Origin: Acidimicrobiia bacterium
GTDB taxonomy: Bacteria > Actinomycetota > Acidimicrobiia > Acidimicrobiales > Poriferisodalaceae
NCBI GenBank assembly: GCA_022820925.1
Contig: JAJEEO010000008.1
Span: 124,001 to 188,000, forward strand
Direction: 5' to 3'
Length of the DNA stretch: 64,000 nt
Below, in pieces: positions 13,848 to 18,217 of the stretch. A program made the translations under genes and the position numbers. Position 1 is the stretch's first letter. Each line of letters opens with the position of its first letter. Under the pieces are notes generated by a model. That model was not told where the DNA came from. It worked only from the letters and a program-made list of their open reading frames with translations, and did no database searches.

Positions 13848-14786
13848 CTAGCCGGAGGGCCAGCGCAGGATGCCGGTCTCGGTGCGGCCGTCGGCTTCGA
13901 GATAGTCGGGGTCGCCGGGGAAGGCGATCCGGTCCGGCCCTTCGTTGTCGTAGCGGATCCGCACGTGCTCGTCGTCGGCGGGTGTGCCTCTGCCGGCGGC
14001 AGCAACCGCCTCGGCCACGGTTTCGAAGCGGGCGAGGCGGTGCAGCATGCCGATGGTGGGGGTCATCATCACCATGTCGCCGGCTTCGTTGCGCCGGATG
14101 GCATCTGCCGGGCGAACCCACTGATGCTCGACTGCCTCGTCGTGGTCGGGCAGCGGCACTTGGCCATCCGGCATCGCCGTCAGGAAGAACCGCGTGTCGT
14201 AGCGGCGTGGGGAGCCCAGCGGCGTCACCCAGCGCCCGATGAAATAGACGTTGTCGCCGTCGAGCAGAAGGTCTTCGCTGCGCACCGTCTCGATGAAGTC
14301 ACGCTCGCCGGCATTGACCTCGTCCCGGTACTGGGAGAACCGCTCGGCCACATCGGGCGGAGAGAGATCGATGATGCCCGAAGGCAGATCCCGGGGATCC
14401 TCCACGCCGACCGGGTGGTCGTGATGGGCGAGCAAGATGCCCGCTTCCTCGAACGTCTCCCGCAGGGCCGCAACCCAGAAGGCGATGCCGCCCCGCTCGA
14501 TGCCGATCTGATACGAGGCATCGTCATCGGTCAGGCCCGAAACGGTTTCGTCGGCGATCCGGGTGGCGTCTTCGGGGTCGACAGCGCCGCCGGGGTACAC
14601 CCACATGTCGCCCACGAAGATCGAGCGGGCGTTGCGCTTCAGCATCAGCACATGGGGGTCGTTCTCGTCGGACAGGATCATCACGGTGGCCGCATCGCGC
14701 ACCGGCACGGCCTCGGGGTCGTAGTCGCCCCCGCTCCCGGGTGACTTGGCGCCGACCGAGGCGCGACGCTCGGGTTGCTCACTCAT
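13848..14786 (-). CDS. Nudix hydrolase, NUDT19-like
   Basis: A 312-residue protein with the split Nudix signature GGAVDPED followed, after an insertion, by AALRETFEEAGIL (about 66-118). Long Nudix proteins with this insertion are often acyl-CoA diphosphatases of the NUDT7/19 kind, which is a plausible but unproven role among the many CoA-dependent enzymes here. The ATG gives MSEQPERRASVG; no clear Shine-Dalgarno is seen. Confidence 0.83.
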   Translation of the reverse strand: MSEQPERRASVGAKSPGSGGDYDPEAVPVRDAATVMILSDENDPHVLMLKRNARSIFVGDMWVYPGGAVDPEDATRIADETVSGLTDDDASYQIGIERGGIAFWVAALRETFEEAGILLAHHDHPVGVEDPRDLPSGIIDLSPPDVAERFSQYRDEVNAGERDFIETVRSEDLLLDGDNVYFIGRWVTPLGSPRRYDTRFFLTAMPDGQVPLPDHDEAVEHQWVRPADAIRRNEAGDMVMMTPTIGMLHRLARFETVAEAVAAAGRGTPADDEHVRIRYDNEGPDRIAFPGDPDYLEADGRTETGILRWPSG

Positions 14787-14891: not shown

Positions 14892-15911
14892 TCAGTAGTC
14901 GATGCCCGCGCAGACGAGGCAGTCCTCGCCGTCGTGACTGGCACGGGCCGCTGCTGCGTCCTCGTCGGTCTGGTATTGCGGCGTCGGGTGGCGCTCGACC
15001 CGGTCGTCCTCATAGTCACCGCCACCGGCTGAATCGGCTCCCGCCGTGGCCGCATCGTCACCGTCTGGCACAGCGCACTCGGGCAGATCGGCGGCCCTGG
15101 TGGAGGGCGCGAACACCCGGTCCTTCCACCGGTCCGAATCCGACCAGCGGTAGTGCAGGTGAGCCATGGAACCCGGGACACGCAGATTCTCGAATGCAGC
15201 AAACGTGTCCCGGAGGATCTGCAGGTTGAGTTCGGGTTCATGCGGCTTGCCCGCTGTGCGACCCAGCGGGTAGTCCAGGTACGCGGCGCGGGGCGGCCAG
15301 GCCGCCCGGGTGATGTCGCGTGCGCTCGACATCGACAGCGTCGGGATTCCTTCGGCCTCGATGGCTCTCGCGATCAGACCCCCGGTCTGATGGCAGACAG
15401 GTCACACCGGCACAAGCAGCACCACATCGAGCTCATCGGCTACGCAGCGCTTGGCCAGCTCCGGGATCAGCTCCTCACGGACGCGCCGGGTGCTGTAGAT
15501 GCCGCCCATGAGGGTGTAGGCGTTCGGTCCCAGCTCGCCTATCTCGCCGCTGTCCCGCAGCGCACGCAAGCCCTCGATGGGGAACACGCAACTGATGTCC
15601 GAGCGGGCATCGGTGAGGTCGTAGGCGAAGTGCGTGGCCCGCAGGTCGGACGTGTCCACGTCGGTGGGGATCGCTCGGTACGTCGTGTCGTCGCGGTAGT
15701 GGAATGCCGTCTGGCCGACCGAATAGACGCCGCCCGTGGCGATGAGGCCCACGCGGCACTCGGAGATCGGCTTGGTCAGCGGTGTCCATGGCGGCGGCGT
15801 CTCGCTGTGGACCCAGCGGTACTCGCCGTAACCCAACCCGATGTACTGGGCCGTGATCCGCGGGATGTACTCAACAGGTGGCTGGCGGGCAGCGACAGTC
15901 TCAGCGCTCAC
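14892..15911 (-). CDS. GrdB-like selenoprotein (glycine/betaine/sarcosine/D-proline reductase family) with in-frame UGA
   Basis: Read through a TGA at 15402-15404, the frame encodes 339 residues. The Sec codon is residue 170 in LLVPV-U-PVCHQTGGLIARA, a UxxCxxT redox motif; other members of this family carry Cys or Sec there. Homology continues on both sides without frameshift: GVYSVGQTAFHYRDD and PTDVDTSDLRATHFAYDL before, YLDYPLGRTAGKP after, ending in DCLVCAGIDY. A perfect hairpin 10 nt after the UGA fits a bacterial SECIS. The GTG at 15911 has TACCGT 6 nt upstream (leaderless). Family members reduce or thiol-modify small substrates; the role here is unknown. The alternative is a nonsense mutation in a Cys-type gene. 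SelA, SelB, SelC and SelD are not in the window. Confidence 0.85.
15373..15404 (-). promoter_or_regulatory. Sec UGA codon with downstream SECIS-like hairpin
   Basis: On the minus strand the UGA (15404-15402) is followed by 10 nt, then AUCAGACC-GGG-GGUCUGAU, a perfect 8-bp stem with a GGG loop (15391-15373). The loop begins 18 nt after the UGA and starts with G, both within the described rules for bacterial SECIS elements. Confidence 0.75.
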
Positions 15912-15917
15912 GCTCCT

Positions 15918-15923
15918 ACGGTA
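15918..15923 (-). promoter_or_regulatory. -10 element TACCGT, leaderless promoter of the selenoprotein gene
   Basis: TACCGT on the minus strand, then 6 nt, then the GTG at 15911. It supports that start and active transcription. Confidence 0.5.
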
Positions 15924-16062
15924 CGCGGTCGGCACAGTCCCCGGCAGAGGACAGGCACAAGAAGGCACAGATGCCGGAGCGAAGGAGGCGGGCGCACGTT
16001 CCCGCGCGGCTCCGAAATCCGGTAGCGAGGCCGCGTCACCCGTGGCATCCTTGACCCCCCGT

Positions 16063-16145
16063 GCGGGTCGTAGCTCAGTTGGTTCGAGCGCCACGCGCTC
16101 GCCCCCAGCGAGCGCCATCAGACACAGCGTGGCACTGGAGGCCGG
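16063..16145 (+). pseudogene. Broken tRNA-His copy with hairpin in the anticodon arm
   Basis: The 5' half matches the intact tRNA-His at 16201, then the anticodon loop is replaced by about 37 nt containing a perfect 8-bp hairpin, GCGCTCGC-CCCCA-GCGAGCGC (16095-16115). The copy resumes with TGGCACTGGAGGCCGG and diverges before the T arm, so no cloverleaf can form. Confidence 0.75.
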
Positions 16146-16200
16146 CTGCCGGAAATCCGGTAGCGAGGCCACCGCGGCCGTGGCATCCTTGACCCCCCGT

Positions 16201-16275
16201 GCGGGTCGTAGCTCAGTTGGTTAGAGCGCCAGTTTGTGGCACTGGAGGCCGGGGGTTCGAATCCCCTCGATCCGC
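16201..16275 (+). tRNA. tRNA-His (anticodon GTG)
   Basis: A complete tRNA with encoded G-1 (16201) opposite discriminator C73, as expected for His. Acceptor CGGGTCG/CGATCCG has one G-U pair; anticodon stem CCAGT/ACTGG has loop TTGTGGC; T loop TTCGAAT. Confidence 0.95.
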
Positions 16276-16332
16276 CCGCCGCTCGTCGACCGCTTGTGTC
16301 GGGGGGCCGTCGTTAGCCTTGCGGGGCACCAC

Positions 16333-16455: not shown

Positions 16456-17001
16456 ATGGGCAACGACAGCGAAGCCAGCGAACCGGAGTCGTCCGAGTTC
16501 CACCCTTCGGCCGATGAGTTGATCGAGCACAACCGGCAGGTGGCCGACACCGTCAAGACGCCCGGCATGGCGGCGCCACCCAGCCGTCACGTGGCCATCG
16601 TCACCTGCATGGATGCCCGGATGGACCCGCTGCCAGAGCTGGGTTTGACAGTCGGCGAAGCGCACGTCATCCGCAACGCAGGCGGTGTGATGACCGACGA
16701 CGTCATGCGCTCGCTGTGCATCTCCCAGCAGCTGCTCGGCACCCGGGAGATATTGGTCATACACCACACGAAGTGCGGCATGTGCGGACTCGACGAAGCT
16801 GCCTTCAGCAACGTCCTCGGCCAGCGCCTGGGCGCCCGGCCAAGCTGGCCCATCTGTTCGTTCGCGGACCCCGCCGACGACGTGCGCGCCGCCATCGCAA
16901 CACTGCAAGCCTCACCGTTCATCGAGCACGACACCGCCGTCCGCGGCTTCATCTACGACGTCGACACCGGCCTCCTCAACGAGGTGCCGGCACTCAGCTG
17001 A
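16456..17001 (+). CDS. Beta-carbonic anhydrase
   Basis: A 181-residue cytosolic zinc enzyme interconverting CO2 and bicarbonate. The ligands are visible: Cys51 and Asp53 in TCMDARMD, His104 and Cys107 in HHTKCGMCG, with Arg55 completing the Asp-Arg dyad. It is a short form like the mycobacterial Rv1284 group. The ATG at 16456 is the only good start. The neighbour downstream is convergent. Confidence 0.92.
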   Translation: MGNDSEASEPESSEFHPSADELIEHNRQVADTVKTPGMAAPPSRHVAIVTCMDARMDPLPELGLTVGEAHVIRNAGGVMTDDVMRSLCISQQLLGTREILVIHHTKCGMCGLDEAAFSNVLGQRLGARPSWPICSFADPADDVRAAIATLQASPFIEHDTAVRGFIYDVDTGLLNEVPALS

Positions 17002-17563
17002 CAGCGGTCGGGGCGGTGGGCCAGCCGGGGACGCCTTCGTCTCGCTCGACGCCGGTGCTGTTAAGCAGCCCGCTCACCATCCGGTAGCAACCCGCCGCTG
17101 CGATGAGATGCACCATCTCGGCCTCGCTGAAGTGGGCAACCGCCTCGGCCCAGGTGGCATCGGACACGCAGTCGTCGGAGTACAGGTCGTCCACCACCTG
17201 CAGGAGTGCCGCTTCGGCGGACGTCCAGTTGCCTTCGGGAATCGGCCTGGTGACGAGGTAGATCTCCTCGTCGGTCATGCCCTCGGCTTGGGCGATCAGC
17301 GTGTGCTGGCCGAACTCGTAGACCGACTGGCAGTTCCAGCCCATGCGCAGCACGGCGATCTCGACATCGCGACGCGACAGGTCGCCCCTGTACAGGATGG
17401 CCAGCGCGTACTCGCCGAACGCCTTGGAGATGGGACGGCTGTGCGCGATGGTCGCAATGACGTTGACGGCGTTGGCGAATGAACTCTCCATAGCCTCGCG
17501 GGCTCGCTCGGCCACCTTGGGGATCGGCTCAAGGCGTCGGGAAGTGGGTCGTGGCAGGTGCAT
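16994..17563 (-). CDS. Carboxymuconolactone decarboxylase/AhpD-like protein
   Basis: A 189-residue all-helical protein of the CMD family. The active-site helix reads WNCQSVYEFGQH (76-87), which keeps one Cys and the His but has no CxxC, so peroxidase activity is doubtful; it is closer to decarboxylase-like members. The ATG at 17563 begins the homologous region. Its 3' end overlaps the carbonic anhydrase gene end by a few bases in convergent orientation, and it is divergent from a second CMD-family gene. Confidence 0.82.
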   Translation of the reverse strand: MHLPRPTSRRLEPIPKVAERAREAMESSFANAVNVIATIAHSRPISKAFGEYALAILYRGDLSRRDVEIAVLRMGWNCQSVYEFGQHTLIAQAEGMTDEEIYLVTRPIPEGNWTSAEAALLQVVDDLYSDDCVSDATWAEAVAHFSEAEMVHLIAAAGCYRMVSGLLNSTGVERDEGVPGWPTAPTAVS

Positions 17564-17647: not shown

Positions 17648-18217
17648 ATGACCGAGCCAGCCATCTCGACGTTTCCTGTGCCTGACATCGCGGACATGCC
17701 CGACGACCTGCGTGAGCGCATCGAGCTCATCCAATCCAAGACCGGCTTCGTGCCGAACGTGTTCCTCGCGCTGGCGCACCGGCCGGAGGAGATGCGGGCG
17801 TTCATGGCGTACCACGACGCGCTCATGGAGGGCCCGAGCGGGCTCAGCAAGGCCGAGCGGGAGATGATCGTGGTGGCCACCAGCGGGGCCAACAACTGCC
17901 TCTACTGCGTGGTCGCCCATGGCGCGATCCTGCGCATCCGGGCCAAGGATCCGCTGCTGGCCGATCAGCTCGCAGTCGACCCGTCCAAGGCCGATCTCAA
18001 CGACCGGCAACGGGCGATGATCGACTTCGCCCTCAAGATGTGCAGCGAGCCGTGGTCGGCTTCAGCGACCGATCACGAGGAGCTGCGGGCTCACGGCTTC
18101 AGCGACGACGACATCTGGGACATCGGCGCCATCACGGGCCTGTTCGCTTTGTCGAACCGCATGGCCCACCTGACATCGATGCGGCCCAACGACGAATTCT
18201 TCACCATGGGCCGCTAG
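17648..18217 (+). CDS. Peroxidase-related enzyme of the AhpD/CMD family
   Basis: A 189-residue protein matching the uncharacterised peroxidase-related branch (TIGR01926-like). The redox motif NNCLYCVVAHG places Cys84, Cys87 and His91 as in AhpD, so thiol-based peroxide reduction is likely. It is the paralogue of, and divergent from, the CMD gene at 16994. It is convergent with a solute-binding protein gene, overlapping its end by 4 bp. Confidence 0.86.
   Translation: MTEPAISTFPVPDIADMPDDLRERIELIQSKTGFVPNVFLALAHRPEEMRAFMAYHDALMEGPSGLSKAEREMIVVATSGANNCLYCVVAHGAILRIRAKDPLLADQLAVDPSKADLNDRQRAMIDFALKMCSEPWSASATDHEELRAHGFSDDDIWDIGAITGLFALSNRMAHLTSMRPNDEFFTMGR

Follow-up and report, generated by a model that had tools for sequence, protein, structure and literature searches.

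A predicted PrdB/GrdB-like selenoprotein in the genome of an Acidimicrobiia bacterium, probably distinct from D-proline and glycine reductases

The window analyzed here (i.e., the whole 64,000-nucleotide stretch of DNA) contains a reading frame with an internal TGA codon, which raises the questions of whether this codon is read as selenocysteine (Sec) and, if so, what kind of enzyme the full-length product may be. A preliminary description had proposed a GrdB-like selenoprotein at this locus. Its coordinates, its 339-codon frame, and the position of the TGA are exact; the gene is on the minus strand, which had not been stated (Table 1). The prediction that gene calling would split the gene was also borne out, as standard open reading frame calling returned a 256-amino-acid piece ending at the TGA and a 146-amino-acid piece starting at an internal ATG. 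The computational checks suggested in that description all turned out in its favor. On the basis of the Sec machinery of the genome, the conservation of the TGA, a joint codon and anticodon change to TAG/CUA in a relative, compensatory changes in a downstream hairpin, and purifying selection on both halves of the gene, we accept that the gene is, as judged from comparative sequence data, a real selenoprotein gene encoding a single 339-residue protein. It is very likely that this selenoprotein is expressed and is neither a D-proline reductase nor a glycine reductase.

Table 1. Features of the selenoprotein locus and its paralogues (window positions unless a contig is named)
Feature	Position	Strand	Remarks
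Coding sequence of the PrdB/GrdB-like selenoprotein	14892..15911	minus	339 residues; GTG start at 15911-15909; stop TGA at 14894-14892
UGA codon for predicted Sec170	15402..15404	minus	Codon 170 of the 339-codon frame
Cys173 codon (partner of Sec170 in U-x-x-C)	15393..15395	minus	Invariant in 56 aligned homologues
C-terminal CxxC (Cys331-x-x-Cys334, ...CLVCAGIDY)	14910..14921	minus	C-terminal CxxC in 54 of 75 homologues
Predicted bacterial SECIS hairpin, AUCAGACC-GGG-GGUCUGAU	15373..15391	minus	Covarying pairs; CAG invariant, CTG nearly invariant
NUDIX-family hydrolase, directly downstream	13848..14786	minus	Same-strand neighbor in 16 of the loci clustered
L051, PrdB/GrdB-like paralogue	contig C7:159409-160203		In-frame TGA, UPVCHQTIGL
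L052, PrdB/GrdB-like paralogue	contig C12:87003-87575		In-frame TGA, UPLCTRTVST; different stem, same CGUGA loop

The motif around the TGA codon reads VVLLVPV-U-PVCHQTGG, and the peptide spanning the Sec site is VPV-U-PVCHQSVGLIAR. Homologues in the family start approximately equally far upstream of a conserved PPV(E/D)YIPR motif, which supports the GTG start at 15911. Upstream of this start (window 15905-15935, minus strand; TACCGTAGGAGC), an AGGAG lies 1 nt from the start codon and is immediately preceded by a TANNNT-like box; given this spacing and the adjacent box, the message may be leaderless.

The source genome (3.28 Mb; 95.6% complete) carries the four genes for which the preliminary description had suggested a search, i.e., those for tRNA-Sec (67 bits; anticodon UCA), SelB (272 bits), SelA (395 bits), and a Sec-type SelD (356 bits). 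selB and tRNA-Sec, whose absence had been named as an argument against a selenoprotein, are thus both present. selA and selB are close together on contig C10, approximately 12 kb from the tRNA-Sec gene. The selD gene (L070; contig C13:426129-427082) has an in-frame UGA of its own (SHGAGUACKLG), downstream of which there is a 7-bp hairpin (GGCGCAG-GUU-CUGCGCC).

Behind the UGA of the window gene, the hairpin anticipated in the preliminary description (8 bp, GGG loop, 10 nt after the TGA) is found at 15391-15373. The stem is perfect and the loop begins 18 nt past the UGA, in agreement with the description of bacterial SECIS elements as hairpins that directly follow the UGA and have a small apical loop containing a G (PMC1088965). 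We examined all TGAs of the window for a fully paired stem of 8 bp or more (G-U pairs allowed) with its loop within the SECIS range, and such stems followed 6 to 7% of the TGAs of this GC-rich window. The folding of the 42-nt segment compared with shuffled sequences gave a z of only -1.4. On both counts, the hairpin by itself is weak evidence, and we rejected folding energy alone as a basis for judging it. The frequency of equally strong hairpins also leaves room for the idea of a broken gene, i.e., a nonsense mutation or an assembly error followed by a chance hairpin. The homologues make this idea barely credible.

Of 61 genomes from the order, 42 contain a relative of the gene, and almost all of these relatives have an in-frame TGA; the orthologues are 88 to 94% identical within the genus, 63 to 72% within the family, and 49 to 55% in the remaining families of the order. 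When genome contigs were scanned, 80 homologous loci were obtained, which according to the record titles belong to Acidimicrobiia and other Actinomycetota, to Gamma-, Alpha-, and Deltaproteobacteria, to Myxococcota, and to one Spirochaeta metagenome-assembled genome; no relatives were found on viral contigs. The codon at the Sec site is TGA in 78 of these loci, TAG in one (Blastococcus tunisiensis), and TGC (Cys) in one. All three paralogues of the source genome have kept the TGA, and its retention across this set refutes in practice the notion of a broken gene. Within the genus, dN/dS is approximately 0.03 to 0.08 before the UGA and 0 to 0.12 after it, which indicates purifying selection on both sides; the decay of the downstream half in close relatives, envisaged earlier as a sign against the selenoprotein, is not what these relatives show. 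Homologues with Cys opposite the UGA, which the preliminary description had proposed to look for, were found in L110 and, in the distant paralogue group C, L185; both are without a hairpin at that place (by-eye reading for L185). Across 296 genomes of Actinomycetota, the family is associated with tRNA-Sec, which was detected in 45 of 51 genomes with the family and in 119 of 245 genomes lacking it (Fisher P = 6e-8, computed from listed counts and ignoring kinship among the genomes). The invariant residues of the family include Y23, W33, D105, Y139, S140, R142, D162, U170, C173, H174, and Q175.

A genome-wide reassignment of UGA (e.g., to Trp) that would involve no selenium is still harder to credit than a broken gene. 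Frames that are open across a TGA do occur, but the same gene is terminated by a TGA for which relatives substitute TAA or TAG, the homologous residue at the internal site is Cys and not Trp, and the genome contains a tRNA-Sec with anticodon UCA together with the full Sec machinery. We also considered whether the final TGA (14894-14892) might encode a second Sec and rejected this candidate: it serves as an ordinary stop codon, for which 23 of 75 homologues have TAA or TAG, and the downstream likeness seen in the closest genomes is not retained elsewhere in the genus.

The codon change in Blastococcus tunisiensis DSM 46838 (L107; NZ_FOND01000003.1) also argues against a broken gene. Its PrdB-like gene has TAG at the Sec codon and retains the hairpin (AUCAGUC-AGUUG-GACUGAU), and its tRNA-Sec (69 bits; at G352:C26:210373) has the anticodon CUA; ARAGORN calls this tRNA Pyl on the anticodon alone. 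Since the codon and the tRNA-Sec anticodon have changed together, a residue other than Sec at this site would be hard to explain. UAG-encoded Sec is known in Geodermatophilaceae (PMC5330540), and the combination observed here resembles the cases reported there; the proteins named in that report are FDH, UGSC-motif, and AhpC proteins, whereas a PrdB-like protein is not among them. The UAG copy offers a cultured host with a built-in control for Sec insertion.

A covariation analysis, of the kind advised in the preliminary description, showed that the hairpin covaries, with compensatory changes at two pairs. Among 88 distinct sequences, 53 have A-U and 25 have U-A at pair 19-27; at pair 15-31, 47 have U-A and 25 have C-G. 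On the 5' side, the 19-27 swap replaces Thr with Ser, and on the 3' side it is synonymous (Gly, GGT to GGA). The CAG codon of the hairpin is invariant and CTG is present in 86 of the 88 sequences, while neighboring codons of the same stretch vary freely. The covariation score was 0.160 compared with 0.072 for shuffled data, and it was exceeded by none of 500 shuffles and by no slid version. Mapped onto the tree, these patterns amount to two or more double changes per covarying pair, so the independent events are few. Nine homologues (L096, L097, L102, L119, L125, L138, L143, L144, and L146) have mismatches at both pairs (C.A and U.U) and retain the UGA and the protein; for L096 and L125, members of an actinobacterial clade with both mismatches, folding predicted a different structure reaching into the UGA. 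This clade speaks against the hairpin model. In paralogue group C, the CGUGA loop is the same but is enclosed by a different stem (GCGUAC/GUACGC). The conservation and covariation of the hairpin in homologues are not weak evidence.

We propose that SelB loaded with Sec-tRNA(UCA) very probably binds the hairpin that starts 10 nt after the UGA, leading to the insertion of Sec170. An AlphaFold2 model of the protein (pLDDT, 90.6; pTM, 0.90) places this residue in an alpha/beta domain, after strand 163-167 and immediately before helix 171-186. In the model, the position of Sec170 at the helix N terminus (U-P-V-C-H-Q-T) would suit the attack of a selenolate on a substrate, after which Cys173 may close a Se-S bond with Sec170. 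The C-terminal CxxC, as a possible resolving or relay dithiol, or a thioredoxin could then reopen this bond. As no GrdE/PrdA-type partner was found, the protein would act alone as a thiol-fueled reductase in an oxygen-respiring cell. A sequence search of the PDB returned nothing useful, and the fold search gave no clear match (best Foldseek E, 0.0098; best VIA Z, 7.7, for microcystinase C); since no fold match stands out, we took no function from the fold.

The family assignment rests on remote homology. The best model by far is TIGR04483 (PrdB), which aligns with residues 38 to 256 at 164.9 bits (E = 2e-48), compared with an equivalog cutoff of 300. PF07355 (GRDB) is just passed (25.8 bits; gathering score, 22) with an alignment to profile positions 218 to 345, around Sec only; its paralogues reach 19.0 and 20.9 in the frames scanned. 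GrdB models score the protein at approximately 42 bits, and TIGR01918 (41.9 bits) does not reach its subfamily cutoff of 65.45. None of the matching NCBIfam models reaches its cutoff for this protein. The earlier label "GrdB-like" thus stands as a statement of remote homology, with PrdB as the closer model at a score well under its cutoff; the GrdB/PrdB name appears to fit the homology of the protein and not its function.

The name PrdB, under which marine surveys list the family, would make the protein a subunit of a true D-proline reductase (or of a glycine, betaine, or sarcosine reductase), and the PrdB model match is in keeping with this. We regard such a role as quite improbable. The protein shares with the PrdB of D-proline reductase (Clostridium sticklandii/C. 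difficile) homology over residues 38 to 256 and Sec (or Cys) in U-x-x-C, but it scores 165 of the required 300 bits, has an additional C-terminal part of approximately 80 residues, and belongs to an apparently aerobic host. Similarly, it shares the PF07355 match and a Cys after Sec with component B of the glycine, sarcosine, and betaine reductases (GrdB/GrdF/GrdH), while its motif is UxxCxxT instead of UxxCxxC and the alignment is limited to the surroundings of Sec. The partner subunit is of the GrdE type, to which we take PrdA to belong as well. PF09338, which represents this type, was absent from the source genome and detected in 1 of 41 genomes searched (39 of 40 relatives were negative). 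TIGR04480 (PrdA) also had no match, in a search that gave no match in any control. The source genome encodes haem-copper oxidases, along with three paralogues of the family. Given the low PrdB and GrdB scores, the absence of PF09338, and these oxidases, it is unlikely that the protein reduces D-proline or glycine in a fermentation. It seems to be a selenol-dithiol redox enzyme that works without a partner, and its host seems to be aerobic.

PrdB and GrdB are Sec-containing subunits that cleave C-N bonds reductively. A relative of GrdB has been proposed to cleave a C-F bond (PMC10838667). By analogy with these two activities, we offer the tentative guess that the window protein may cleave a C-N or C-X bond with a good leaving group. 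About equally probable is the reduction of peroxides or disulfides, in which case the protein would be a general thiol redox enzyme that uses U-x-x-C in the manner of thioredoxin-like selenoproteins and cleaves no C-N or C-X bond. This second possibility agrees with the modeled position of UxxC where a helix starts after a strand, with the C-terminal CxxC of most members, and with the lack of a substrate-specific operon. It is at odds with the C-N-cleaving activity of the homologous enzymes and with the fold search, in which no thioredoxin match ranked above unrelated entries. The many invariant polar residues (Y23, W33, D105, Y139, R142, D162, and H174) also speak against it, since they suggest a specific small substrate.

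The selenoprotein family itself is already known, and the window gene is a well-supported new member. The marine "PrdB" (pfam07355, UxxC) has been listed among selenoproteins since 2005, with 42 sequences from the Sargasso Sea and 235 Sec-containing sequences in the GOS data, where it was among the most abundant families (Sec forms versus Cys forms, 235 versus 110) (PMC1088965, PMC2398784). In a later survey, "PrdB" accounted for 6.4% of marine selenoprotein genes (PMC9402790). The window gene has the same Pfam family, the same U-x-x-C motif, and the same marine distribution, and it presumably belongs to the same subfamily, as judged from the published descriptions. While the surveys comprise reads without hosts or partners, the window gene can be placed in a genome that encodes the Sec machinery and two more paralogues but no partner of the GrdE/PrdA type. 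Our search of the literature on the function of aerobic PrdB-like proteins found none. We consider it probable that the marine "PrdB" family consists of separate stand-alone aerobic selenoenzymes that catalyze a previously undescribed reaction and not that of D-proline reductase; one actinobacterium has three or more paralogous groups of them. By its survey name, the family would carry out a fermentative reaction, which is improbable in a cell that respires oxygen and lacks the partner subunit. The present data add the genomic context in Acidimicrobiia, where three paralogues occur together, the lack of the partner, and a cultured strain whose copy uses UAG for Sec. Since gene calling splits the genes and the matching NCBIfam models remain under their cutoffs for the window protein, a common selenoprotein family is easily overlooked in genomes of actinobacteria.

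The neighborhoods of the 80 loci share no operon across lineages, and synteny is limited to the clade level; several clusters formed automatically consisted of halves of the target gene itself or of frames antisense to it. The NUDIX gene is a neighbor conserved at this level, and any functional link to the selenoprotein is putative. Elsewhere in the vicinity, the leader and first third of a tRNA-His gene are duplicated (window 16014-16093 and 16152-16277, plus strand; 80 nt, 93% identical), with the truncated copy directly upstream of the intact gene. A pair of PF02627 (carboxymuconolactone decarboxylase/AhpD-like) genes lies in opposite orientation at 16994-17527 (minus strand) and 17648-18217 (plus strand).
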